Positions 9,211-32,973 of a DNA stretch of 33,128 nt are shown here, one piece after another. The DNA lies in contig WJIP01000280.1 of NCBI GenBank assembly GCA_014730185.1, forward strand, positions 1 through 33,128, read 5' to 3'. The translations under genes and the position numbers were made by a program. The notes below the pieces were generated by a model. It saw only the letters and a program-made list of their open reading frames with translations, had not been told where the DNA came from and did not search any database. Every line of letters starts with the position of its first letter. Position 1 is the first letter of the stretch. The DNA is from Caldithrix sp. GTDB lineage: Bacteria; Calditrichota; Calditrichia; Calditrichales; Calditrichaceae.

Positions 9211-12156
9211 TTATTTCAATAATAGTATTTTCTTTTGGATTTTATGTTTATTATCAACCGTAAGCTGATAGAAGTAAAAACCGGAACTTACTTTATTGCC
9301 AATCTGATCATTAGCATTCCAGCGTACCGTATTTAATCCTCCGGGTCGTGTACCGTTCACTAAGGTGTTTACTTTTTGCCCCAGCGTATTGAAAATTTCC
9401 AGTTTAACTTCAGAAGCTTCTGGTAAATAAAAGTTGATATTCGTGACTGGATTAAACGGATTCGGTGAGTTAAATACCATCTTAAATCCGATTTCCTCTT
9501 CAATGTCTTCCAAATTAACATCCGTAACCTGAACAACCGAAGAACTTCCGTCTGTACTACCACATGTAACCACATTAGCAGCTTCATCATAGGTCCATCC
9601 CGATTTTGTCACATTATCAACACAGAATGTAAACTCGCCGTCACCTACCACCCAACTTGATTTGGCGGTTGCCCAACCATCGGAACCGGTGACTACTTCG
9701 TCCTGGTCTGAAGCGCTACCCGACCAACTGCCGGTTACCGTGGCATCACTAACCGGATTACCACTGCCATCAACAACACGGATTTCGGCTGAGCCCCTGG
9801 TTACTATCCAGAACGCTTCTTTAACCACATCCAGCGCGCTTACATACATAGATTGCTGGGCCGGTTCGCTAACTGTAATATAATCGGTTTTGGTCTCAGT
9901 ATCCGATCCAAAATCATTGGTTGCGGTAAGACTGACTGTGTAGGTACCCGCACTGGTATACTCATACGTTGGATTTTGAGTGGTCGAAGTACCTCCATCA
10001 CCAAAATCCCAACTCCAACTGGTGGGTTCATTGGTTGATTGATCGGTGAATGAAACCGTCAGCGGGGCTTCACCCGATGTTGGAGTACCGCTGAAATCAG
10101 CCACTGGAGCACTGCCGCTTGGTTCGGATACTGTGATATAATCGGTTTTAGTTTCGGCATCGGAATCGCATGAATTGGAAGAACTTAGCGTTACTGTGTA
10201 CGTTCCGGCCGACGTATATTCATATGATGGGTTTTGGGCATTGGAAGTACCGCCATCACCAAAATCCCAGATCCAGGATGATAAATCTCCGGTGGACTGG
10301 TCGGTAAACGATACGTTTAATGGCGCCTCACCGGATGTTGGTGATCCACTAAAATCCGCTGTGATGGATTCGTATACGGTTATATAGTCTGTTTTGGTCT
10401 CCGTATCGGAACCATCCGGTCCGCTGACGGTCAAAGAAACCGTATAGGTGCCCGGCGAAGTATATTCATGGCTGGGATTTTGTGCGGTTGATGTATTGCC
10501 ATCACCAAAATCCCAGTTCCAGGAATCGATCTCACCGCTGGATTGATCGGTAAAAGAAACCGTCAGTGGAGCGCAGCCCTCGGTTACATCTGCAGTAAAT
10601 TCTGCTGAAGGCGGTTGTGTACCACCGCCGGTATTAACTGCATTAAAGGCATTCACGCGACCGGCGCCCAGTTTACCTTCGTAAGAGGCATTGCCGGAAA
10701 TACCGTAAATATCATCAGCGGTAGCATACAGATGTTGCTCAACCTGTTCGCGCGTCCAGCCCGGATTTTGTGACCATATCAGAGCGGCCACTGAAGCAGT
10801 AAGCGGCGTCGACATAGAAGTACCACTTAATGTAGCGGTATAATCATTCTCCGGATCATCATTATCATGATAAGTACTCAGAATATCCGAACCCGGAGCG
10901 GAAATATCCACAAAACTACCATAAGTTGAGAAATCCGACTTAACATCATTCTGGTCGGTGGAGGCTACCCCGATTACATCGCTACGATCCAGCATATAAT
11001 CCGATTCTTCGTTATCATCATTTCCCGCTGCTTTGAAAACTAATCCACCACTGGCTACAAAGTAATCAATGGCATCGCCCAGCCCACCGGAATTGGATGA
11101 TCCCCAGCTACAGGACGCAATCTGGGCCCCGTTATCAGCGGCATAATATAAAGCATCAGCAGCAAATCCCATATCCACATAGCCTACTTCGAAGATAAAA
11201 TATCTTCCGGACCAGCCGATGCGCATAGGCATAATTTTCACACCATTACCCTCTACAGCCTGCGAACCATTGTTCCAGCCACCAGCTGGGGATGCAACAG
11301 CATAATTATTATTATTGATAGCGGCAACAATACCGGAGCAATGAGTACCGTGACCGTTGTAATCCCGGGGGTCGTTATCCGGAACGTCGTCATCCTCTCC
11401 GCTTACTCCGCTTTTATTATCGACAAAATCCCAACCGATCCAATCATCCACGTATCCGTTGCCATCGTCATCAACACCATCCGCTCCATTTTTCTCCGCT
11501 TCGTTAATCCACATGTTACCCCGGGCCGCTTCCGGATTAGAATAGGAGGCATCGGCACCGCCCAGGTCTTTATGAAAATAGCGCACTCCTGTATCCAGAA
11601 TGGCAACAATGATTTGATCACTTCCGGTCTCGATGTCCCAGGCCTCGGGAGCATCCACATCGGCATCATTACTTTGACTGAGGTGCCATTGACTGCCGTA
11701 TTCAGGATCATTGGCATTGCGGGCATAGAGTTTATGGATACCAATGACCTGGGCATCAATTATCCCGGAAACCCGGCGATAAGCTCTGGCTACACGTTCA
11801 GCATCAATTTCATTTTTGAAACTAATACGAAACCATAAACGGGGATCTATCGTCCGCCCCTGGTAGCGACGGGGCTGTAAATCAGGGTATTTCTGGATCA
11901 AGCTCTGAGCGGCAAATTGATTATTCAGACGATCCAGGGCTTCGATCCCTGTAATAGCTTCTCTTGCCGCCCGTCGTTTATCTATACGATCAAGTAAAGA
12001 ATTATTCAATTTGATAACAATGTGCTGCTTATCATACCCAAGAAAATTCGGTACATCTTCGTTATCCATCGATACGGTTTTATGCTTCACCTGCTGTGCA
12101 AAAAGGAATGAAGAAAATAATGCGAGTGAAAGAAAAATAGAAGAGATACGTTTCAT
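9211..12156 (-). CDS. Secreted subtilisin-like serine protease with three PKD domains and type IX-style sorting domain
   Basis: A 981-residue protein with signal peptide MKRISSIFLSLALFSSFLFA and a propeptide-like region to about 150. The S8 peptidase domain has a complete triad: D188 (ILDTG), H269 (HGTHCSG) and S447 (GTSMSTP), with AAGN as the oxyanion Asn. Three PKD domains (WDFGDG motif) cover about 517-762. An Ig-like segment (about 770-870) follows, then a C-terminal sorting domain from about 893 with PNPFNP, GQKV and SSGFYFYQL, ending in KKILLLK, typical of type IX cargo in FCB bacteria. The protein is probably secreted and surface-attached, degrading extracellular protein. GGAGG lies 7 nt before the ATG. 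The gene stands alone with its own terminator. The catalytic call is very secure; the secretion route is inferred. Confidence 0.93.
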   Translation of the reverse strand: MKRISSIFLSLALFSSFLFAQQVKHKTVSMDNEDVPNFLGYDKQHIVIKLNNSLLDRIDKRRAAREAITGIEALDRLNNQFAAQSLIQKYPDLQPRRYQGRTIDPRLWFRISFKNEIDAERVARAYRRVSGIIDAQVIGIHKLYARNANDPEYGSQWHLSQSNDADVDAPEAWDIETGSDQIIVAILDTGVRYFHKDLGGADASYSNPEAARGNMWINEAEKNGADGVDDDGNGYVDDWIGWDFVDNKSGVSGEDDDVPDNDPRDYNGHGTHCSGIVAAINNNNYAVASPAGGWNNGSQAVEGNGVKIMPMRIGWSGRYFIFEVGYVDMGFAADALYYAADNGAQIASCSWGSSNSGGLGDAIDYFVASGGLVFKAAGNDDNEESDYMLDRSDVIGVASTDQNDVKSDFSTYGSFVDISAPGSDILSTYHDNDDPENDYTATLSGTSMSTPLTASVAALIWSQNPGWTREQVEQHLYATADDIYGISGNASYEGKLGAGRVNAFNAVNTGGGTQPPSAEFTADVTEGCAPLTVSFTDQSSGEIDSWNWDFGDGNTSTAQNPSHEYTSPGTYTVSLTVSGPDGSDTETKTDYITVYESITADFSGSPTSGEAPLNVSFTDQSTGDLSSWIWDFGDGGTSNAQNPSYEYTSAGTYTVTLSSSNSCDSDAETKTDYITVSEPSGSAPVADFSGTPTSGEAPLTVSFTDQSTNEPTSWSWDFGDGGTSTTQNPTYEYTSAGTYTVSLTATNDFGSDTETKTDYITVSEPAQQSMYVSALDVVKEAFWIVTRGSAEIRVVDGSGNPVSDATVTGSWSGSASDQDEVVTGSDGWATAKSSWVVGDGEFTFCVDNVTKSGWTYDEAANVVTCGSTDGSSSVVQVTDVNLEDIEEEIGFKMVFNSPNPFNPVTNINFYLPEASEVKLEIFNTLGQKVNTLVNGTRPGGLNTVRWNANDQIGNKVSSGFYFYQLTVDNKHKIQKKILLLK
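9868..10608 (-). repeat. Three tandem PKD-domain repeat units
   Basis: Repeat units within the subtilase gene, recognised by recurrence of CCATCACCAAAATCCCA (plus strand) at 9995, 10253 and 10499, giving unit spacings of 258 and 246 bp. They encode PKD domains with GEAPL(N/T)VSFTDQS, WDFGDG and GTYTV motifs. Similarity at the DNA level suggests fairly recent duplication of units. Confidence 0.85.
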
Positions 12157-15378: not shown

Positions 15379-17103
15379 TTAAAATAACACATTGATCTCG
15401 GAACCGTATTTGATGCCGGTATAGCTTTCGAAGGTATCAAAGTACTGGGGACCGTAATCGGGATCAGCAATGACTTGTAGCGCTTCTTCTGTTGAATAAC
15501 GCATTCTGCGTACATCAGAACCAACAATTACTTTAAAGGATATATTGTTATTAAAAAAGTATTCCAGTCCAAATTCACCGGCAATCTGATTATAATCGCT
15601 CAGCATATCCTGTACGCCACCATTATCAGCCTCATTGTACAGTAAAGACATTGTGGCTTCCATAGTTAATTTTTGCCTTAATATATCCCAGCGGCCGGAA
15701 GCGTATGTGTATATATTATGATTAAGCTGTTCGTTCGTCATTTCCATGTAGCTGTACACCGTTCCGCCGGACAAATAGAGTTGTGATGACGGCCGAAGGT
15801 AAATGTTCATGCTATTAACCAATTGAAGGGTACCCAACGGTTCGCCTCCCGGTACCAGACTTCGGTCGTTCAAATCGATATATAATGATGAAATAGAAAA
15901 ACGGTTGTTGCCCATAGAGAAATTTATCCGGCCATCGATGGTTTGCGTCTGTTTCTTGGTTTGGCTCAATAAATCTTCACCCAGATCAACCGCATCACTC
16001 CGGTCATCACGGTACCGCCAGCTCAAAGATATCCTTGGCCAGTTTTTAAAATAGGTTTCCATGGAAATTTCAGCAATTTTTATAGTTGTCTTTGGTATAC
16101 CTTCGCGATTATCCAGGTTATCTTCGTACTGTTCGCCCTCCAACCCAACAACCACGGCATCGGCAAAACGATATGCGCCTTCAACCACTATCCCTTCCCG
16201 ATCCGTTAACAAATAGGGATAACCAGCCGTGTAGTAATCATATCCTATACGACGATAAAAACTCAAAAATTTGAAATTCCGGTATCGGAAATCAACGCCC
16301 CCTTTATAAGCATAATCTTGAATATTGTTTGCCGATAGGGTATCCTTTTGGCTGGCATAAAATTCACCGAATCCCTTTAAGTTCTGCCCCCACAGGAACA
16401 AGGTGGATTGAACACCGGCATTACGGTTATTCAGCGGTTCATTGAAGGCATCATTAATGGATTGCTCATCATCCTCCGCCATCAGGTATTTGAATGCCAG
16501 ATGAAACCGATTGCGCCATCCGGACCGAATGATGGCGTTAGCCATATAACGCCTGTATTCTCCGGAATTTTCATATTGATGATAAAATCCTCTTAAACGT
16601 TCTCCAATTGCCCGAGCCTCCCTGACCAGACCGGCATTAAAGGTTGTTTCCAAAAAACCGCCTGTACCGTAAATATTATCCAGCTCTACTGCAAAACGGG
16701 CGCCGCGGGTTTGCCGGCTTTGAGCGAATAATTCAGATCCCGTTTGGAAAAAATCACCCAGAGTAATTTCAATGTCGCTAAAACGAACATTCAATGTCAG
16801 GCGATCAACATCCTTCCATTGTTGAATGTGATCCCACCGATTATTCTTAAGATCACCGAGTAAGGTAACATCCAATCCCTCCCCTCTGGCAAATAAGGAA
16901 AGATTAACCCGTTGTTGTAATCCTGGGACCAGGGAACCTTTTGCATATTGATCGGAAGCAATTGTATCCGGTTTGATTTCGGAATTCTCATCCAAATCTG
17001 TATTGGTTACCTGCATCGATACGCGGCCGGTAACATTCAAAGATTGCTGCCCGTTAAGGAGAAACGGCACTAGAAACACTACATAAATTACCCATTTTTT
17101 CAT
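15379..17103 (-). CDS. Putative outer-membrane beta-barrel protein (surface operon, third gene)
   Basis: A 574-residue protein with signal peptide (MKKWVIYVVFLVPFLLNGQQ) and, for its whole length, alternating polar/hydrophobic strands rich in Tyr, Arg and Gly with a C-terminal Phe (SEINVLF), the hallmark of Bam-assembled barrels. Near the N-terminus VRFSDIEITLGDFF and RQTRGARFAVEL stand out as a compact motif, which may mark a plug or periplasmic region. I do not recognise a named family. GGGAGG lies 4 nt before the ATG, 12 nt after the stop of the FecR-domain gene, so it is very likely translated with it. Inferred role: pore, anchor or assembly factor for the surface protein encoded first in the operon. 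It is not obviously PorP/SprF or TonB-dependent. Confidence 0.7.
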   Translation of the reverse strand: MKKWVIYVVFLVPFLLNGQQSLNVTGRVSMQVTNTDLDENSEIKPDTIASDQYAKGSLVPGLQQRVNLSLFARGEGLDVTLLGDLKNNRWDHIQQWKDVDRLTLNVRFSDIEITLGDFFQTGSELFAQSRQTRGARFAVELDNIYGTGGFLETTFNAGLVREARAIGERLRGFYHQYENSGEYRRYMANAIIRSGWRNRFHLAFKYLMAEDDEQSINDAFNEPLNNRNAGVQSTLFLWGQNLKGFGEFYASQKDTLSANNIQDYAYKGGVDFRYRNFKFLSFYRRIGYDYYTAGYPYLLTDREGIVVEGAYRFADAVVVGLEGEQYEDNLDNREGIPKTTIKIAEISMETYFKNWPRISLSWRYRDDRSDAVDLGEDLLSQTKKQTQTIDGRINFSMGNNRFSISSLYIDLNDRSLVPGGEPLGTLQLVNSMNIYLRPSSQLYLSGGTVYSYMEMTNEQLNHNIYTYASGRWDILRQKLTMEATMSLLYNEADNGGVQDMLSDYNQIAGEFGLEYFFNNNISFKVIVGSDVRRMRYSTEEALQVIADPDYGPQYFDTFESYTGIKYGSEINVLF

Positions 17104-17115
17104 CCCGCCTCCCGT

Positions 17116-18585
17116 TTATCGGATAATAATAGTATGGCTGTTATCTCGGGTTACATTGCCGGCCATATCTTCCACATAAATATTTAATCGGTTTTCTGCG
17201 GCGGATAGAGCCCCCGGTTTTCTTTCCAGAACTATTTTAGTCTCAAAACTACCGTCGGATTTGGGTTGCACGTCTTTGCCGTTGATGGTAACTCGTTTGA
17301 TTTTAGAGGAGGGTTCCGGGTCGACAATAATCCCCCTTATGGTTTGTTCAAAACGTTCGGCCCGATTATTGAGCTCATTTTGCGGAGGTCTGGGCGGTTC
17401 ATAACGCACAAATACTTTTTTGGGGGGATCAGTAATGTTTATGATCGGTTTTACTGTGTCCAAAAATATATTTTCATTGATCTGTGTTCGATTATCGGAA
17501 AGATCGGCCGCCATGATATTGATTGTGTTTTGTCCTTCATTGAGAATGATGGTACGGTTGAATGTACCGCGACCGACAACCTGAGTAATCAATTGTTCAT
17601 TAATGAATACTTTGATACGATCGGCAGGGGTAGGATCGAAAACTGCACCGCTCAAGCTGTAATCCCGTCGGTTCAGAAAGCCGCTTACCAGCGGTTTGGA
17701 CAATCTGATTTCCGGTGATTGGGTATTAACCAATACTCTGACTGTTTTTTCTTGTCGCCGCTGTCCTTTGACAGCTTGCAGATTGATGGTATTAATGCCT
17801 TCCCGGACAGCCACCCGTCCTCTAAAGTTACCATTCGGGGTGACCTGTAACGGTTTCTGATTAGCAAATACTTTTGTATCTGCAGTAACCTGTCCCTGGA
17901 GCAATATCCCCCCGGTTAGCACGGCCGGATCCTTATATTGAAAACGTGATGTATTGACTTTAAACCGGAAGCCCATAGACTGGTCCTCTCGATTGTCGTC
18001 GCCCGGTTGAACGCTTGCCGGTTGTGTAGGTGCCCGGCCCGGAGCCACAACCGATTGCTGATTAGCCCCCACCTGAACTTCACCCTCCGCATCCTTGGAT
18101 CGCACAGATACCAGACCCTCGATGACCTGAACTGTGGTAGTACGTTCCTCATTTACATTCATCCTGAGCGTTGTTCCTCGAATAGCAACAACCGCACTTG
18201 GACTTTCAATTTCACGTTTCTGTCTGGAAGTGATTACTTTTTTAAATTTGGCCCAAACATCGCCAGCCCAAAGCGTAAATCCCATACTGTCCTCATCATC
18301 TTCCTCAGGACGCTTAATCTCATCCACATCAAATATAGTATTTTCATTAATTTTGATTAAGGAACCGTCCGGCATCGTCAGCTCACAACGGGAATTAAGC
18401 CGAGTGCGAATGCGATCTCCTGCAAAAACAGCCATGTCAAGCTGCGCCTTTTTCCATTGGGTTTCTGTTTTGGGCATCACCTGAACCTCGCCGATCAGAA
18501 AGGACATGTCGGCGCTATTTTTTGCGGACAGCCGTATTCCTGCGGCTAAAAAAAATATTATCGAAAAATAAAATGTCTTTTTCAT
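17116..18585 (-). CDS. Secreted FecR-domain protein with Ig-like repeats (surface operon, second gene)
   Basis: A 489-residue protein with signal peptide (MKKTFYFSIIFFLAAGIRLSA). A FecR-like domain covers about 25-175: GDRIRTRLNSRCELTMPDGS, then ESPSAVVAIRGTTLRMNV and VQVIEGLVSVRS. At least three Ig-like/glucodextranase-B-like units follow (about 215-490), each ending in a pattern such as EGxNTINIxAxDxSDN or ENRLNIYVEDMAGN. Classical FecR is a membrane anti-sigma regulator; this protein has no cytoplasmic part and no sigma-factor gene nearby, so a structural or ligand-binding role in the periplasm is more likely. Start ATG 18585 is chosen over TTG 18591 because GGAAG then lies 9 nt upstream. 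The gene sits between the giant surface protein and the barrel gene, with 31-nt and 12-nt gaps. Confidence 0.78.
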   Translation of the reverse strand: MKKTFYFSIIFFLAAGIRLSAKNSADMSFLIGEVQVMPKTETQWKKAQLDMAVFAGDRIRTRLNSRCELTMPDGSLIKINENTIFDVDEIKRPEEDDEDSMGFTLWAGDVWAKFKKVITSRQKREIESPSAVVAIRGTTLRMNVNEERTTTVQVIEGLVSVRSKDAEGEVQVGANQQSVVAPGRAPTQPASVQPGDDNREDQSMGFRFKVNTSRFQYKDPAVLTGGILLQGQVTADTKVFANQKPLQVTPNGNFRGRVAVREGINTINLQAVKGQRRQEKTVRVLVNTQSPEIRLSKPLVSGFLNRRDYSLSGAVFDPTPADRIKVFINEQLITQVVGRGTFNRTIILNEGQNTINIMAADLSDNRTQINENIFLDTVKPIINITDPPKKVFVRYEPPRPPQNELNNRAERFEQTIRGIIVDPEPSSKIKRVTINGKDVQPKSDGSFETKIVLERKPGALSAAENRLNIYVEDMAGNVTRDNSHTIIIR

Positions 18586-18616
18586 ACTCAAAATCTTCCC
18601 GCTTTTTTGATATTAT

Positions 18617-21600
18617 TTACTTAATTAAGATCATTTTCCGCGCTGATTGATGCTGAAATCCCTCAAACCGAATAATGTAAATACCGCTGGACACGCTAGT
18701 TTGATTACTGTTATAACCATCCCAGCTCATGGTATGGACGCCTGCCTCCAGCGGTTCGTGAAAAAGCGTTTTAACTTTGCGGCCCAGCAAATCATAAACG
18801 GTTAGGGTGGCCTTTTTGCCGTCTGCATAAAATGGCACAGCGATGCGGAGAGTAGTTTGCTGGTTAAAAGGATTGGGATAATTCGGGCTTAACTGATAGG
18901 CTGTAGGCAATATCTGCGGTTGAAATTGGTCGTCATTGGTGGCGTATAGTTTGAATTGTGCCCGGATATGCTCAGCGGGTATGGTGTAGGAAAGCCGTTC
19001 ATCCAATCTGAACCATTGCCCGCTCTGTAAATGATAGAGGTAAAAATGCAGTTGCCCGTTATTCGATTGCAAATAATCCCAGGTTAAAACGGCGGTTTGT
19101 CCGGGTTGTTTTCCCTGTATGAAGATATCCCATTCGTAGTTTTGGATTTCGGTTTTGGCCGTTTTTATCCAGGCCGAGAGGGCATTACCTTGACGCACCG
19201 TATACAAGCGGGGCTGGTTATCGATCGGTGGCGGTTCAAAAGCATCATGTGTATACCATGCCAAATTTTCTCCCGGGTCTTTGATGCCGAAGTAATTATC
19301 GTCATCGGCATATTGACCGCTGGTCATTTTTAATTGTATCACAGAAAACGCCGTCTCAGGCAATGATTGATTACCCTGGCGGGCCAAAAAATTTTCTTCT
19401 ATGCCCAACTCTGTTTTGGGTTCATAAGGGTCACCATTCAATGTTATTATTGCCGGTCTGTAACTCCATATCCAATAACCTTTATGCGGTTGCAGCCAAA
19501 CACCGGTCTGTCTAACATATCTCTGTAATGGCCAGGTTTGATAATGATAAATTGCCGGAGAAATCAAACTATCTGCTACCGCTTCTTTAAACGAATAGGA
19601 TTCGGCATCAGGTGTTGCGATTGCAGTGTTTTGCAAATCAATATGCCAGCCCCATGGATTGCCTAACTGATTCCATCCTGTTTGCAGGTGCACACTCACC
19701 TCTTGTTTCTGTTCCAGAAAAGGCAGATCATTAAGATCCACCTGACCACTTGCATTATGAATCATCCAATAGCCACGCCCGTATTCGAGTGAGTCCGTCT
19801 TAACAGTTTCATATTTACCTTTGCTCCACTTTTTAAGCGCTAAAGGCGGCTTTTCGTTTAATTTGGCGGTGAAACCTTTCAATGCCCGACTCGGTGTGAT
19901 CATTTGCCACCGGTTTTTGAAAATGATCAGCTTACCGGCTTGTACCATTATTGTGTCGGCAATTTTATTGTCGGCAGCAAGTCCGCCATTGAAGGCTGTA
20001 TCAAGGGCTGCCACCTGAAACAAATATAGGCCATCGCTGAGAGGATAAAATTGAATATCCTGTTGGGAAACACGGTTACTATCTATGGTCATGATGCCTT
20101 GATGATCTTTACGCATCAGTCGATACTCATAACGCAGCAGTCGATCCGGTGTGCCAATGGAACTGAACACACTGTCATCCCCGGTAAACCTATATTTCAG
20201 CAAAGCTTGTTTCACGGTATCCGTTGGGGTGTAGGTAAATAAAGTTCGGGGCGCCATCAAGTCACGATACGATACCAAAACAGTAACGGTAATGTGCTTA
20301 CTCAGTTCTCCGGTGTTCGTATCAACAAACGAAAGTCGGTGCGTATAGGTTGAATCCCGCTGTAATCCATCGGCAGAAATAAGCAGACGCCAGGTTTGCT
20401 GCCCCCCGGGTAAAATGGGCGATTCCGGTCGTTGTAATATCAACCATGCTGGCTTGTCATCGATCTGCTTCAGTTGAAGGGGCAGTGTACCCAAATTTGT
20501 GACCTTAAAATTACGGCTAAGTATATCTCCTTGTCCAAGCTGTACCGTAACCGATTGCTGGCTGAATGCATAATCGATAATATCCCGGCGGGCTCCTAAT
20601 ACCTTAGAATACCCGGAAGCTCCGCCGTTCGTGTCTACATAAGCCAAACGATAAAAATAATCCTGTCCGAATTGAAAGTCCGTATCAACATAACGGTATG
20701 TACCGCGCGGTCGAAGAGCTATCATGTCGGACGTATCCGGATGAAAAGCTTTGATCGTATCTCTGAAAATGGCCGTAGCTGCAAAAAATGCCGAAGGTGA
20801 CTGCAAGGGCGGTGACCAGTTCAGCACCAAACTGGAATCGGTTGAATCTATGGCGGCCTCAGGCCTTTCCGTGAAATTGAATGGCCGTCCCACACTGCCA
20901 AACAACCCAATATCTGAACGGCTGCTGTCACCGCTGGATAATTGGGGATGCCCCCGGTCCAATAATGGCGAGCCCGGTGCCAGCTTAAAGGCATTTGGAT
21001 CAAAACCGGAGTCATTTACGGTATATTCTCCCGGCAAAACATAATAATCCTGTACAAATAATGGCGCTACATGTAAGGTGTTCAGAGTGTCCGTAAGACC
21101 ATGCAAAAGTTGATGGTTCATAAATAGATCGTTATAATGAAATTTTACTTCACTGTTGGTAGCCATTACCGGTATATTATTATATCCCAAAATATTATTG
21201 ATAAGTTCAGCATTACCATTATTCACCGATACAGCACCACCATTATTTTGAGCGAGAGAATCATTAACACCCATTATCGTATTCTGAATGTATGCATTAC
21301 TGCCGTCCAACTGAATACCCCAAGTCCTGTTGCCCGAGACCATGGCGTTTTGAATATGCAATCGACTATTATCCCTTACATTGATTCCATTGCCGCCTTT
21401 GGCATCTAATACTGCACATAAACCCAGGTCGCCTTCACTATTACTAAGTTGTAAATTATAGGAATAATTTTCGGCAATTTCCGCATACCTTAGTTTCAAT
21501 CCAGATTGATTGTTAAGTGTGATACCTCCGGTTGTTGTATTGCCATCCTGTCCATTTCCCCCTACAAACATATCTTGCAAGGAAAGGTTACTATTATCGG

Positions 21601-24600
21601 CCAGTATGCCCCCTGCATCGTTGTCAACAATATCTCCACCGGATAAAACTCCTTCAGAAACCAGCATCTCCAATCCCAGCACATTCCGAGAGACGTGCAT
21701 ATCCTTTGCGGTCAGACTCGACCTCTCGGCATAAAGACCTTTTTCAAAACCACCCAGCCGCACACGCTTCAGCCTTACCGAATCGCTTTCCAAAATATTC
21801 AGACCGACAGCTGTGGGATATGGGGTCTCGTTACTCAAATCCATATTCTCGATCCGAACACTGTCATTTTTTATACGCACAAGCGCATCCGTGCTGAGAA
21901 ACGATGGGCCTGGACGGAGCAACACGCCGTGAGACTGACTTCCCATAATGGTTATGCGCTGGTCGATCACCAGATTTTCCTGATAGACCGCTGGATGAAC
22001 AATTATGGTATCCCCATCGAATGTACGATTCAGGGCTGTGGATATGGTGGAAAACGGTGCATCTAAAGAACCGTCCCCTCCGATTTCATTTCCATCAACA
22101 TAATAGGTTCTTGACTGCCTGGTAATATTTTCCAGAAATTGCCATCCGTCCAACGCTGTGTTGGTACTGTAAGCCAGTATATCCAAATCGCCATCTGCAT
22201 CGAAATCAGCAGGTATGATCCTGTCCGCTGAGATATCCATAGGGAACGAACCTAAATCCGTGATGGACTGTACGCCGCCTCTGAAAAATTGTATCGTAGT
22301 GTTATCCAGGGCGGCAGCCATATCCAGCAGGCCATCGGAATCAAAATCTGCACAAACCACATCATTGATGGTATGGTTTAATGTCACATCATAGTATTCA
22401 TTTAACTGGCCGTCCGATTGAAGCTGCAACACTTTCAAATAGTTGTCATTGTTTAAAGGGTAATTTCCAGCCACCACCAAATCTTCCGTTTCTCTCACTA
22501 GGGTTTCGTGCCAGACATTGGCTGCTTGCAATACCTGCTGTTCGCCCAAATCCAGAGACGTGCTGATTCGTTTGTTAAAATTGCGATCAAGATTAAGCAG
22601 TAAAGCGAGGTTATCAGAATCGCTGCCGTTATTGGTAATGATATCCGGCCGACCGTTCTCATCCGCATCGAAACGCACCATTTTGTGCGCCTGCCCGGAA
22701 ATATTGATGGGTGTGCTGCCACTTAACTGATAGCCCTCCCGGAGACTGCCGTAATAAACAGTCACTTCTTCAAAGAGGAAGAGCCGTTGCAGAATAGCCA
22801 TATCCATAATTCCATCGAGGTCAAAATCATCAACGATAAAATCTTTGAGCGTGCCGCCACTGTCTCGGAGTTGATCCAGAATCTGTGTAAATCCCTGCTG
22901 CGTATCATATGCAATAATACGGATGCGTTGGTCATTGACCAGCACAAGCTCATTATTTCCGTCATTGTCCATATCTGCTGCCCGGAGCATGCTGAAAGGA
23001 GCTTCCAGTAAAATACTGTCCCTCAATGCAAAATGGAAAGCTTCGGTAGATTCATAGATATACAGATGATCACCCCTGAGTTGCGCCAAATCGATTTGAT
23101 CGTTGCCTGTCAGCTGCGCTGCAATGATCCGTTTAATATCCGAATAACTGCTATCGGCTGCCGACGCCTGCCATCCGGCTGTTCCGCGGAAAGCACCAAC
23201 ATTAAACCACCAGCTATATCCTTGCGTGACGGACAATCCCTGTTCATTTAAAATGCCGTCGGTCAACACAACCGTGATCTGTTCTCCGGATATAAATGGA
23301 CGTTGCGGTATTAAATAGATGGTTTGCCGGGTGTTATCGTACAGGGAATCATAGATATATTGTCCCCGTTTATCCGATACAATTTTAACGGTAGAATCGT
23401 TGATGGTACTGGGATCTATGTCCTCCCTGAACCGAATCTCAACCACTGCATCTTTCGGCACATCACTCTGGTAAGCCGACGGATAGACACTGAGTGCGGT
23501 ATCTGCTGCTTGCCCTGGAATGCCCAGCGTAAATTGTTGCCCGGGAAGCGTATTCAAATTAAGCCGGGCTTCTCTGATTAGTGGATCGATTTCCGCAGAT
23601 AGAGGTTGCCAGCTATCCTGATCTGAAGATCGGTAATAGACCTGCATATCGCTTGCGGCAGGGGCGCCGATATTTTCCCATTCCTCTTTCTGATATTGAA
23701 AGGTTAATTCAATGTTCGGTTTGTCCCAAATCCCTTCTCCCCATGCTATATCGTACAATTTTTCCATTGTTTTGACGGATTGATCATTGGACAAAACGGT
23801 ATCCGGGAATGTATTGACGATAAGACCGGCTAAAACAGAATCTGCAGACAATGTATCCGTTAAGGTCACATAACCGTCTCCAAACCAGTAGGCTGGCTGC
23901 TGATTGTACAATGAAATCTGTAAAGGTACCGGTTGATGTTTAAACTGCAATTCACTCAAATCAGCCCCCGGAATAGATATTTGCAGCTTAACGGCATTGC
24001 CTTCACGGAATCCCCAAAAATTATCATCCATATTAAGAGATGGTATGGATTGTTCCGCATGTACGGCATTCAGATTTTCTGAGGCATAGTTGTGATAGAT
24101 ATTATTTTGCAAATTATCAGCTCCACCCAGTGTCAACCGATTTATCTGATGAATGCCAATACCCCCGCCTCTCAGAACGGCATTGTTCCCGGATACCTGA
24201 TTGGACCACAATTCAATACTGGCATCCATTGAGTTACTGAAGTAGAGTCCGCCTCCGGCTTCCTGAGCAAAGTTCGAAACAATGATATTGGAACTGACGA
24301 TGGCATTGTTAATATCTTCAAAATAAAGGCCCCCTCCCTGGCCTCCGCTTTCATTTTGGGCAATGGAATTTTGATAAACCGTGTGATTATAAGCGCTTCC
24401 GATCAGATATATTGCGCCCCCATGATTTATCGCCTTGTTGTGGAACAGCCAGTTACTACTGATTGAATTTCCATAAATATCCGGAGTCGTGTGGGCATCG
24501 ATGTATACCGCCCCTCCCCTCCCGGCGGTATTGTCGTAGACCGTATTCTTTTGAATAAGGGCGTCACTGCAGGATTGTAAAAAGATAGTGCCGCGGCCGG

Positions 24601-25216
24601 TATCTGAAGTGCTGTGATTGAAAATGTGATTATGGATGATTTGAGGCGCGCTGCCATAGGCGTAAATCGCGCTACCTCCCCGAGCTGTGTTGGCCGACAA
24701 TTCACAATTGATAATCCTGGGCGCGGCAATTATCTCATTACTGATGATGCGTATCCCGCCTCCCTGCTGATCATTATTTCGGTTGTGATTAATTAAGCAA
24801 CCTCTGATGTCTGCAGAGATATCGGTAAGCTGGATAGCACAACCCTGGAGTGTACTATCACTGTGTGTTATCTGCAAATTTTTGATTCGAATATCAGGAT
24901 TGGAATCATCTCCTCCGGTAATGCTAATGGTGGGTCCTTCCAAGGGACAGGCTATGATGGGCATATGATCCGGATCGGCGCTTTGTAAAACAAATGCCAT
25001 CGGATTATTGAGCACAAGTTGTTCGTAGTAAACACCCTCATATATGTGGATGGTATCCCCATCGCTCAATTGAGATAAAGCATGATTAATGGTTTCCCAG
25101 GGATCATCCACCGTTCCTGCAGCCTGATTATCACCGTCTGCGGCCACCCAATATTGACTGGCAAAACCTTTGCTTATCCAAATAAACAGGATAATGAAAA
25201 ACAATATACGTATCAT
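18617..25216 (-). CDS. Giant exported multidomain protein: two beta-helices, Ig-like, FG-GAP repeats, FN3, type IX-style sorting domain
   Basis: About 2199 residues. A signal peptide (MIRILFFIILFIWISKGFAS) is followed by: a first right-handed beta-helix with DUF1565-like start (YWVAADGDN ... GTVDDPWETI; about 25-420); a Big_5/SbsA-like Ig domain (about 575-675); FG-GAP/VCBS repeats with D-rich calcium-type loops such as ADMDNDGNNELV, DDFDLDGIMDMA and ADFDADGDLDIL (about 700-1010); a second beta-helix opening YYVDGNEIGGDGSLDAPFSTI (about 1035-1400); an FN3-like domain (about 1450-1545); a further Ig/BACON-like region; and a C-terminal sorting domain from about 2109 (PNYPNPFN, LLGRKVKTL, SSGIYIIRF). 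GAGGG lies 7 nt before ATG 25216; an ATG at 25246 would misplace the signal peptide. Probably a cell-surface adhesin, filament or polysaccharide-interacting protein; the function is unknown. First gene of the three-gene envelope operon. Confidence 0.88.
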   Translation of the reverse strand: MIRILFFIILFIWISKGFASQYWVAADGDNQAAGTVDDPWETINHALSQLSDGDTIHIYEGVYYEQLVLNNPMAFVLQSADPDHMPIIACPLEGPTISITGGDDSNPDIRIKNLQITHSDSTLQGCAIQLTDISADIRGCLINHNRNNDQQGGGIRIISNEIIAAPRIINCELSANTARGGSAIYAYGSAPQIIHNHIFNHSTSDTGRGTIFLQSCSDALIQKNTVYDNTAGRGGAVYIDAHTTPDIYGNSISSNWLFHNKAINHGGAIYLIGSAYNHTVYQNSIAQNESGGQGGGLYFEDINNAIVSSNIIVSNFAQEAGGGLYFSNSMDASIELWSNQVSGNNAVLRGGGIGIHQINRLTLGGADNLQNNIYHNYASENLNAVHAEQSIPSLNMDDNFWGFREGNAVKLQISIPGADLSELQFKHQPVPLQISLYNQQPAYWFGDGYVTLTDTLSADSVLAGLIVNTFPDTVLSNDQSVKTMEKLYDIAWGEGIWDKPNIELTFQYQKEEWENIGAPAASDMQVYYRSSDQDSWQPLSAEIDPLIREARLNLNTLPGQQFTLGIPGQAADTALSVYPSAYQSDVPKDAVVEIRFREDIDPSTINDSTVKIVSDKRGQYIYDSLYDNTRQTIYLIPQRPFISGEQITVVLTDGILNEQGLSVTQGYSWWFNVGAFRGTAGWQASAADSSYSDIKRIIAAQLTGNDQIDLAQLRGDHLYIYESTEAFHFALRDSILLEAPFSMLRAADMDNDGNNELVLVNDQRIRIIAYDTQQGFTQILDQLRDSGGTLKDFIVDDFDLDGIMDMAILQRLFLFEEVTVYYGSLREGYQLSGSTPINISGQAHKMVRFDADENGRPDIITNNGSDSDNLALLLNLDRNFNKRISTSLDLGEQQVLQAANVWHETLVRETEDLVVAGNYPLNNDNYLKVLQLQSDGQLNEYYDVTLNHTINDVVCADFDSDGLLDMAAALDNTTIQFFRGGVQSITDLGSFPMDISADRIIPADFDADGDLDILAYSTNTALDGWQFLENITRQSRTYYVDGNEIGGDGSLDAPFSTISTALNRTFDGDTIIVHPAVYQENLVIDQRITIMGSQSHGVLLRPGPSFLSTDALVRIKNDSVRIENMDLSNETPYPTAVGLNILESDSVRLKRVRLGGFEKGLYAERSSLTAKDMHVSRNVLGLEMLVSEGVLSGGDIVDNDAGGILADNSNLSLQDMFVGGNGQDGNTTTGGITLNNQSGLKLRYAEIAENYSYNLQLSNSEGDLGLCAVLDAKGGNGINVRDNSRLHIQNAMVSGNRTWGIQLDGSNAYIQNTIMGVNDSLAQNNGGAVSVNNGNAELINNILGYNNIPVMATNSEVKFHYNDLFMNHQLLHGLTDTLNTLHVAPLFVQDYYVLPGEYTVNDSGFDPNAFKLAPGSPLLDRGHPQLSSGDSSRSDIGLFGSVGRPFNFTERPEAAIDSTDSSLVLNWSPPLQSPSAFFAATAIFRDTIKAFHPDTSDMIALRPRGTYRYVDTDFQFGQDYFYRLAYVDTNGGASGYSKVLGARRDIIDYAFSQQSVTVQLGQGDILSRNFKVTNLGTLPLQLKQIDDKPAWLILQRPESPILPGGQQTWRLLISADGLQRDSTYTHRLSFVDTNTGELSKHITVTVLVSYRDLMAPRTLFTYTPTDTVKQALLKYRFTGDDSVFSSIGTPDRLLRYEYRLMRKDHQGIMTIDSNRVSQQDIQFYPLSDGLYLFQVAALDTAFNGGLAADNKIADTIMVQAGKLIIFKNRWQMITPSRALKGFTAKLNEKPPLALKKWSKGKYETVKTDSLEYGRGYWMIHNASGQVDLNDLPFLEQKQEVSVHLQTGWNQLGNPWGWHIDLQNTAIATPDAESYSFKEAVADSLISPAIYHYQTWPLQRYVRQTGVWLQPHKGYWIWSYRPAIITLNGDPYEPKTELGIEENFLARQGNQSLPETAFSVIQLKMTSGQYADDDNYFGIKDPGENLAWYTHDAFEPPPIDNQPRLYTVRQGNALSAWIKTAKTEIQNYEWDIFIQGKQPGQTAVLTWDYLQSNNGQLHFYLYHLQSGQWFRLDERLSYTIPAEHIRAQFKLYATNDDQFQPQILPTAYQLSPNYPNPFNQQTTLRIAVPFYADGKKATLTVYDLLGRKVKTLFHEPLEAGVHTMSWDGYNSNQTSVSSGIYIIRFEGFQHQSARKMILIK

Positions 25217-25359
25217 GTTTATACCCTCGTGGCTTTTTAAACACATCTAAGTCTTAGGAAGTTGTATGCTTAGGGGTTGTGAAGAAGGCTCGGTAAGTAA
25301 AAGAATGTTCGGGATCACATTAGGACTTAGAGTATCATCAAAAGCGATAAAAGTTTAAG

Positions 25360-25399
25360 TATATTTCATCAAATAGCTCCCTTTTGATGGCGAAATATA
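25360..25399 (-). promoter_or_regulatory. Strong hairpin in the leader
   Basis: Arms TATATTTCATCAAA (25360-25373) and TTTGAT-GGC-GAAATATA (25383-25399) pair over 14 bp with one 3-nt bulge and a 9-nt loop. On the minus strand it is not followed by a T-run, so it is not an intrinsic terminator. It could be an mRNA element or a large operator dyad. Confidence 0.6.
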
Positions 25400-25430
25400 T
25401 ATGATTCTCAAAACGTTAATCATTGGCTAC

Positions 25431-25468
25431 ACGGGATGGCTTTACAGCTGAGCTGTATTTTGATCCGT
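25431..25468 (-). promoter_or_regulatory. Compact nested stem in the leader (possible RNA element)
   Basis: On the minus strand a perfect 6-bp hairpin TACAGC-TCA-GCTGTA (25443-25457) is enclosed by an outer helix ACGGAT / ATCC(C)GT (25463-25468 with 25431-25437, one bulged C). The single-stranded joints read CAAAA and AAGCC. The joints resemble the CAAA...AAAGCC core of GEMM-I cyclic-dinucleotide riboswitches, but the second helix and receptor of that class are not visible. Confidence 0.45.
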
Positions 25469-25511
25469 TGCACCCTTTCAATAACAAATTTAAGGCCTTT
25501 CTCTTCCATAA

Positions 25512-25559
25512 ATTATAACAGATTTTGCCTATCGGAAGCTATAAAACAAAGTCTGTTAT
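25512..25559 (-). promoter_or_regulatory. Extended -10 promoter overlapped by an operator-like dyad
   Basis: The minus strand has TGTTATAAT (25512-25520), a perfect extended -10 (TGnTATAAT) without a clear -35. A dyad ATAACAGATTTTG (25515-25527) / CAAAGTCTGTTAT (25547-25559), 12 of 13 positions matching with a 19-nt spacer, covers the -10 and the upstream contact region. This is the arrangement of a repressor or activator site controlling the surface operon. Confidence 0.55.
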
Positions 25560-25602
25560 CATTTACTCGATAAGCCCACAACCACTATCGCCCAATGAGA
25601 AA

Positions 25603-26349
25603 TTACATAATTTTCTGATAAGCCTCATACAAAGACCAGATTTCATCCACGTAGTTTATGGTTTCATTATACCCGTAGAAATGGCCGTGTGGAGGCCGGC
25701 CCTTGGGCCAGACTTGTAAATGCAATTGCCAGTCGGAACGTTTAAGCATTGCCAGATAAGGTTTAACGTTTTCCCATTTATTAGCCTGCAATTTGTGGTA
25801 GCGGGCTATATCCTGAGCATCGAATACCCTGCCGGCGCCGGCATTATAACTTGCTAATGCCAATTTGGTTCGGTTTTTATAGTCGGCCTCAGGGAAATAG
25901 CGAAATTGTTTCTTCAGATGGTAGATGCCCGCTGTAATATTTTCGCGGGGACTTTTCATGATATACTCGATATCCAGTTCCCGACTGATTTCTCGGGCCG
26001 TATAGGGCATAATTTGCATCAGGCCGCGGGCTCCCACGTGACTGCGGGCGGTCACATTAAAACCCGATTCCTGTACAATTTGAGCAGCAATCAGACGCCA
26101 ATCGAATCCGTAACGTTTGGCGTATTTTTTAATTGTTGCTTTGTGTTTATCAATGGCTTTTCCTGTCGGCCCCTCGAGCAATTCAAGACGCATTTTAATC
26201 AGCTGTTTTTTCTTGGCCAGCCGATCTTTAACCTCATCTGTAATGGATAGACTATCCGGTTGAATCGCCTGACTTTGCGGCCCGGTTTGACAACCTATCA
26301 CAACAATCAACAGAATGTTTGCCATCAATATTTTAGCAAATTGAATCAA
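25603..26349 (-). CDS. Lipoprotein lytic transglycosylase (SLT domain)
   Basis: A 248-residue protein with a short hydrophobic N-terminus and lipobox-like VVIGC (C20), a charged linker, then an SLT domain with catalytic Glu in AQIVQESGFN (E94), the following GARGLMQIMP motif, ENITAGIYHL and ALASYNAGAGRV. It cleaves the MurNAc-GlcNAc bond of peptidoglycan to give 1,6-anhydro products; domain order resembles the SLT half of MltF or small MltC/EmtA-like enzymes. It probably sits at a membrane facing the periplasm. The start is TTG at 26349, overlapping the DUF350 stop (TTGA), which implies translational coupling; ATG 26325 would leave a very short signal peptide. Confidence 0.88.
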   Translation of the reverse strand: MIQFAKILMANILLIVVIGCQTGPQSQAIQPDSLSITDEVKDRLAKKKQLIKMRLELLEGPTGKAIDKHKATIKKYAKRYGFDWRLIAAQIVQESGFNVTARSHVGARGLMQIMPYTAREISRELDIEYIMKSPRENITAGIYHLKKQFRYFPEADYKNRTKLALASYNAGAGRVFDAQDIARYHKLQANKWENVKPYLAMLKRSDWQLHLQVWPKGRPPHGHFYGYNETINYVDEIWSLYEAYQKIM

Positions 26350-31913: not shown

Positions 31914-32372
31914 TCATTGGGTAAATTGTTCTTTGATGATTTCAGCAACCGCTTCCGGAGTTTTTGCATTCAACAAGGCCTGCCGTATTTCATCGGATTT
32001 ATAATTTCTGGAAATAGTAGCCAGAGACTGTATATGCGGCCCGGATGTATCGCGCGGTGAAAGCACTAAAAAAATCACCTGGGCTGGCTTACCATCCAAA
32101 CTTTCGAAATCCAAACCATCTTTTTTGATGCCCATGGCAATCAATAATTGATCCACACCATCGGATTTGGCGTGGGGTACGGCTAAGCCTTTTTCCAGCC
32201 CCGTGCTTAAATAGCCTTCTCTGGCCAGCAAATCCTTTAAGGTGACCTCTTTATTCAGCAATTGCTTGTTTTCGTCCAGCAGGGAAAGCAATTCCTCGAT
32301 TACATCAAATTTCAAATTACTTTTAATATCCAGCGTTATGTGCTCGGGCGGCAAATGCTTGGAAATATCCAT
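31914..32372 (-). CDS. PTS EIIA(Ntr)-like phosphoacceptor protein
   Basis: A 152-residue EIIA-2/PtsN-type domain. The phosphorylatable His is H67 in GLAVPHAKSD, followed by IFLVLSPRDTSGPHIQSLA, which carries the second conserved His. The spacing equals that of PtsN, which is phosphorylated by the PTS-Ntr relay and regulates targets such as potassium transport rather than transporting sugar. No EIIB/EIIC gene is present, which favours a regulatory role. GGAGG lies 4 nt before the ATG. It is divergent from a second EIIA-like gene and upstream of the polyprenyl synthase. Confidence 0.88.
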   Translation of the reverse strand: MDISKHLPPEHITLDIKSNLKFDVIEELLSLLDENKQLLNKEVTLKDLLAREGYLSTGLEKGLAVPHAKSDGVDQLLIAMGIKKDGLDFESLDGKPAQVIFLVLSPRDTSGPHIQSLATISRNYKSDEIRQALLNAKTPEAVAEIIKEQFTQ

Positions 32373-32499: not shown

Positions 32500-32973
32500 A
32501 TGCAATTAACCGATATTCTGTCCGAAGAATTTATCAAATTGGATCCGGATGCAAGGGATCGAGATACCTGCATTAAAAATTTGCTGGATCTGTTAGACAA
32601 ACATGAACTCATTAAAGATGTAGATAAAGCTTATAGGGCTGTCCTCGACCGGGAAAAAATCATGACGACCGGTGTGGGAAACGGCATTGCCATTCCTCAC
32701 TGTAAAGACAATTCCTGCCCTAACTTCGCCGTAGCTTTAGGGATTCACTGCAATGGTGTGGACTTCCAGGCCATTGATAAAAAGAATGCGCAACTTATTT
32801 TTCTGTTGGTAGGACCCGAAAACAACCCCGGATTGCATATCAAATTACTCAGTAGAATATCCCGACTGATGAGTAATGAAGAGCTACGCCATCAACTGAT
32901 CAAATGTAAATCAGCCGCAGAAGCCATTGAAATCATCAAGGAAGAAGAAAATTATTACTTTGACATCGAGTAA
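32500..32973 (+). CDS. Second PTS EIIA(Ntr)-like protein
   Basis: A 157-residue EIIA-2 paralogue of the divergent neighbour: H67 in GIAIPHCKDN, TTGVGNG just before it and LIFLLVGPENNPGLHIKLLS with the second His. The Cys after the active His (HCK) differs from the neighbour (HAK). Most likely a phospho-regulated signalling protein. GGAGG lies 4 nt before the ATG. A P-II-like gene starts 7 nt after its stop, suggesting the two are coupled. Intergenic DNA of 127 nt separates the divergent IIA genes and must contain both promoters. Confidence 0.88.
   Translation: MQLTDILSEEFIKLDPDARDRDTCIKNLLDLLDKHELIKDVDKAYRAVLDREKIMTTGVGNGIAIPHCKDNSCPNFAVALGIHCNGVDFQAIDKKNAQLIFLLVGPENNPGLHIKLLSRISRLMSNEELRHQLIKCKSAAEAIEIIKEEENYYFDIE

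Follow-up and report, generated by a model that had tools for sequence, protein, structure and literature searches.

In class II promoters of the CRP/FNR type, of which E. coli CRP provides the model, the activator binds at about −41.5 or −42.5. Among described sites, PMC5701242 gives TGTGA-N6-TCACA as the site of HcpR1 in Desulfovibrio. Palindromic DNA of another kind has been described in Caldithrix abyssi, where, according to PMC5317091, the intergenic palindrome AACCGTTnnAACGGTT occurs in 38 exact copies with two central bases and is thought to lie 3′ of genes. Our topic search of the literature found nothing that joined Caldithrix, CRP and a regulon, and a second topic search found nothing on type IX secretion in Caldithrix abyssi. 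Here we compare with these systems the gap that precedes a giant surface gene in Caldithrix sp., for which an original prediction, made from a single sequence, had proposed a promoter overlapped by an operator-like dyad and followed by a long structured leader, the whole exerting tight control over a surface operon.

Results

Gene order around the giant surface gene

The window, by which we mean the whole stretch of 33,128 nt that was analysed, is one entire contig from a 4.1-Mb draft genome. An SLT transglycosylase gene is followed on the minus strand by a gap of 386 nt, the giant gene and a gene with a FecR domain:

25603 to 26349, minus strand: lytic transglycosylase with an SLT domain, the upstream gene (Pfam PF01464, E 3.8e-24)
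18617 to 25216, minus strand: giant surface gene, coding for 2199 aa when read from the ATG at 25216, with beta helix, Big_5, FG-GAP and a T9SS sorting tail
17116 to 18591, minus strand: gene after the giant gene, with a FecR domain and a Glucodextran_B domain

The start of the giant gene was placed at the ATG at 25216, which has GAGGG ahead of it; the ORF listing starts at 25246. The named relatives of the SLT protein belong to the Calditrichaceae and to other Calditrichota, which points to a Calditrichota genome. Many genomes of the order have SLT and FecR as neighbours; the giant T9SS gene separates the two in part of them and was not seen at that position in the others. Elsewhere in the window, a 574-aa ORF that follows the FecR gene (15379-17103, minus strand) had no Pfam or NCBIfam match, a second protein with a type IX tail is a subtilase with PKD domains (9211-12156, minus strand), and two divergent genes with PTS EIIA-2 domains adjoin each other (31914-32372, minus strand, and 32500-32973, plus strand).

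A conserved DNA element precedes the giant gene in relatives

A shared site was first noticed before the giant gene in five genomes (G005, G009, G015, G016 and G019). The element, TGTGAYTWTTGTCATT, precedes the giant T9SS beta-helix gene in all eight other Calditrichota orthologues examined, with one mismatch in G009; three of the eight (G017, G018 and G020) were found via the element itself. The eight genomes span four genera and two families. The seven complete orthologues are 31-34% identical to the protein of the window in full-length alignment, and that of G018, which is cut by the contig end, is 28.5% identical over 1434 aligned columns. When 40 genomes of the class were scanned, exact TGTGAYTWTTGTCATT was present as one copy in each of seven, every time directly ahead of the giant gene, and the reversed-pattern control was found in none of the 40. 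The element was still present in G017, G018 and G020, where the upstream neighbour is not SLT. At these loci (L196 in G017, L197 in G020 and L198 in G018), the place of SLT ahead of the giant gene is taken by a conserved ORF of 375-400 aa.

The distance from the end of the site to the first ATG was 48 to 118 nt in the relatives. Of 11 sequences, eight from the giant gene and three FecR-only, 9 had an ATAT block that began 21-23 nt past the site; bins that do not overlap 21-23 held it in at most 2 of the 11, and once the near-identical G020 was dropped, the count at 21-23 nt was 8 of 10. Among ten FecR genes that do not have the giant gene directly ahead of them, a count that leaves out G001 and G011, a looser form of the site was found within 450 nt in three and no site in seven; the three match by construction, because the loose consensus was drawn from them together with the eight.

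In the relatives, the TGTGA-N6 site is centred about 30 nt upstream of the −10-like block, as in class II promoters of the CRP/FNR type. The site, its spacing, its single exact copy per genome and its position before the gene are direct observations in the relatives; from them we infer that the element would be an ancestral activator site of the CRP/FNR family.

A possible relic of the element in the window

The strict pattern TGTGAYTWTTGTCATT had no match with up to three mismatches anywhere in the 33-kb window. One candidate in the gap comes close to a loose consensus, TGTGAYNNNNRTCAYK, which was derived from the sites of the relatives after their inspection:

25319 to 25304, minus strand: TGTGATCCCGAACATT, possible relic of the activator-type site of the relatives, 87 nt before the ATG, one mismatch to TGTGAYNNNNRTCAYK

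In 655,200 positions from 20 stretches of the same genome, the loose consensus had 14 one-mismatch sites and no exact site. PWMs built from 11 sites and from 7 distinct sites both selected TGTGATCCCGAACATT, with P values of 0.02-0.06 over the whole gap and of 0.0075-0.0135 when only the distances observed in relatives were considered. A first PWM, built from five 19-nt sites, gave a best score in the window of 4.85, below the background median of 6.46, and nothing above background. No ATATT-like block was found 21-23 nt past the relic, so that the window lacks the combination of site and −10 block seen in the relatives.

If this site were still a working activator site, transcription would start near 25270 and the leader would measure about 55 nt; the start would then plausibly lie downstream of 25360, and both the dyad and the hairpins described below would fall outside the mRNA. 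The single mismatch, the correct strand, a distance to the ATG that falls inside the 48-118 nt of the relatives and the P value within that range all speak for such a promoter. Against it stand the missing ATATT-like block, the weaker P value over the entire gap, the result of the first PWM and a consensus that was drawn up after the sites of the relatives had been seen. We regard a functional site at 25304-25319 as unlikely, though as an alternative to be taken seriously.

A single long dyad overlaps an extended −10-like sequence

Both the extended −10 and the dyad of the original prediction were found in the gap, and the dyad, which had been described with 12 matches out of 13, proved longer, with arms of 19 bp that match at 17 of 19 positions:

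25509 to 25565, both strands: quasi-palindrome of 57 bp, with arms at 25509-25527 and 25547-25565 (17/19 complementary) and a 19-nt spacer
25520 to 25512, minus strand: TGTTATAAT, which resembles an extended −10 and points to the giant gene, within the downstream dyad arm, recognized by sequence
25554 to 25562, plus strand: TGTTATCAT, its mirror counterpart on the opposite arm, which points to the SLT gene, recognized by sequence

The arms read TAAATGATAACAGACTTTG (25565-25547), N19 and CAAAATCTGTTATAATTTA (25527-25509), and the dyad is roughly symmetric in that TGTTATCAT on the plus strand mirrors the extended −10. In a sample of 361,028 bases, composed of the window and 20 stretches of the same genome that were chosen non-randomly (contigs from earlier listings), it was the sole dyad with 19-nt arms, at most two mismatches and a gap of 3-60; three Markov copies of this sample held 0, 1 and 0 such dyads. 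Markov copies of the intergenic region contained such a dyad in 2 of 4000 cases, and the shorter 12/13 form appeared in 2.3% of 300 copies. Thus, the inverted repeat exceeds chance and overlaps the putative promoter element TGTTATAAT.

The dyad was not found again in the searches for further copies. The best non-arm matches to its arms in the own genome have two mismatches, matches with up to three mismatches numbered 36 versus 42 for the reversed control, and the whole pattern was not found in the 19 other genomes searched; accordingly, no recurrence was seen in the own genome or before orthologous genes. We therefore rejected a repeat family, since neither the arms nor the full pattern have further copies. 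Identity with the Caldithrix palindrome of PMC5317091 was likewise rejected, as the sequence differs. The dyad is genuine, and it stands alone in its own genome and among the other genomes searched; a regulatory role for it is possible.

The extended −10 by itself was present in 64 of 4000 Markov copies of the intergenic region, and it was not listed by a consensus promoter scan that required both hexamers. In the own-genome sample, TATAAT was not enriched upstream of genes (40 sense versus 49 antisense), nor was TGnTATAAT (3 versus 4), so the extended −10 gains no support as a promoter here from its distribution. A small ORF in the leader was set aside because its ATG, at 25509, is upstream of the start point expected from the −10.

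The position of the dyad, which starts 38 nt past the SLT stop, would also suit a hairpin at the 3′ end of the SLT transcript, acting as a terminator, stabiliser or processing site rather than as an operator. Its RNA is predicted to fold at −15.5 kcal/mol with a z-score of −3.08 on the minus strand, and at −14.9 kcal/mol with a z-score of −4.67 on the plus strand. However, no T run follows the dyad and it was absent from the scan for intrinsic terminators; moreover, 19 regions downstream of SLT in relatives held no comparable long dyad, the next longest being a 12/13 dyad at locus L018. These data make a 3′-end hairpin quite unlikely. A quasi-palindrome without function, arising from an error of replication such as template switching, would be consistent with a dyad that is single-copy and absent from the 19 other genomes searched, but would hardly account for its precise overlap with an extended −10 inside a gap of promoter type, nor for its being the only such dyad in the 361-kb sample; we consider an accident of this kind improbable.

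The leader folds as an ordinary sequence

The hairpins attributed to the leader are present roughly as claimed, the second as a nested stem within the interval given here:

25360 to 25399, minus strand: bulged hairpin, −8.6 kcal/mol, z-score −1.73 for 25355-25405, an interval chosen post hoc
25425 to 25475, minus strand: nested stem, −16.6 kcal/mol, z-score −3.03, an interval also chosen post hoc

As a whole, the 299-nt leader folds at −57.7 kcal/mol with a z-score of −0.66, 50 of 200 shuffles being as stable or better, and its first 176 nt gave a z-score of −1.05. Ranked by z-score among 69 upstream regions of 289 nt (with the start taken at 25246, simple ORF calling, 40 shuffles per leader and a non-random sample of the own genome), it came 35th; its fold does not beat shuffled sequence. 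Two other leaders in the window outrank it, at ranks 6 and 19, and the proposal that its structure is unusual in the window was therefore not confirmed.

An Rfam search at curated cut-offs returned only six tRNAs, leaving the leader without a match. A riboswitch or other known RNA was rejected, given that relaxed E-values yielded only CRISPR-DR47, ceN109 and MIR2679, far below the cut-offs and at chance level. A covariance model built from the single sequence of 25360-25500 gave no hit at E 0.1 when run on 20 further genomes of the order (the 21 searched include the own genome, and none is of the same genus); applied to 17 loci, the same model recovered only itself and a match on its own opposite strand. 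A BLAST search of a 313-nt region against 60 genomes, the own included, retrieved a single match besides the window, 34 nt long and located in G034. This match (25476-25509, minus strand; 88%, E 4.2e-5) falls in a frame tentatively read as ispH, a label that comes from reading locus L002 by eye; TIGR00216 (ispH) had no match in the own genome of the window, and the control matched 9 of 14 genomes. A conserved RNA based on the G034 match was rejected, the match being probably due to chance, since its E-value applies to a single genome and 60 were searched.

The folding of the leader is thus ordinary, and a conserved RNA is without support. An operator combined with a long structured leader that tightly controls the surface operon, as first envisaged, can draw on a dyad beyond chance and on one stem with a z-score of −3.03; nevertheless, the stability of the whole leader, its middling rank and its lack of a homologue in 20 genomes or of an Rfam family make this combination very improbable. 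What survives of tight control is a possible role for the dyad and the fact that relatives carry a conserved DNA element, although a different one; the part that rested on leader structure, which shows neither overall excess stability nor a homologue, is not supported.

Discussion

Our preferred reading, to which we give a probability of roughly 0.45, is that the promoter of activator type seen in the relatives has decayed in the window and that a lineage-specific dyad with an extended −10 took over. The ancestral state would have been a short-leader promoter with the CRP/FNR-type site TGTGAYTWTTGTCATT and, 21-23 nt past it, an ATATT-like block; in the relatives, such a promoter would place the activator dimer at about −41.5 or −42.5. 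In the window, this promoter would have been eroded to a relic without the −10 block, and the upstream 57-bp quasi-palindrome with its extended −10 would most likely constitute a new promoter with an operator. The hairpins in the ~290 nt behind the extended −10 would then reflect ordinary RNA folding without conserved function. We infer this choice over the rival explanations from sequence comparison.

A broader proposal is more tentative, and we would sooner doubt it than rely on it. The single-target activator site, with one exact copy per genome, would have been kept before a giant type IX-secreted gene across four genera and two families, even when the gene has another neighbour, and in the lineage of the window it would have been replaced by an unrelated palindromic and possibly two-way promoter. 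This would amount to a swap at a dedicated switch for a surface protein in an almost uncultured phylum. If true, a doubtful structured leader becomes a testable DNA switch, in which one giant secreted surface protein is coupled to a 16-bp site with fixed spacing to a −10; the regulator that binds the site would reveal when these bacteria build that surface, and the window would show the loss or replacement of such a switch. The case also illustrates that, in a single AT-rich leader, predicted hairpins say little without relatives.

Among known systems, the window resembles Rfam riboswitches and other structured leaders in having a start codon preceded by a long stretch in which stems are predicted; unlike them, its leader lacks a curated match, excess stability and a homologue. 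With the palindrome AACCGTTnnAACGGTT of Caldithrix abyssi, as presented in PMC5317091, the dyad shares an intergenic location and the phylum, whereas its sequence is different, its spacer measures 19 nt versus two bases and it occurs once versus 38 times. Several features also set the element of the relatives apart from CRP/FNR class II promoters: its right half reads TCATT and so does not mirror TGTGA, most of the relatives also conserve the interior TATTG, and a single exact site per genome replaces a regulon; the window, in turn, holds only a relic. Yet it is these promoters that the element of the relatives recalls, with a left half TGTGA followed by N6 and a centre at about −41.5 or −42.5.
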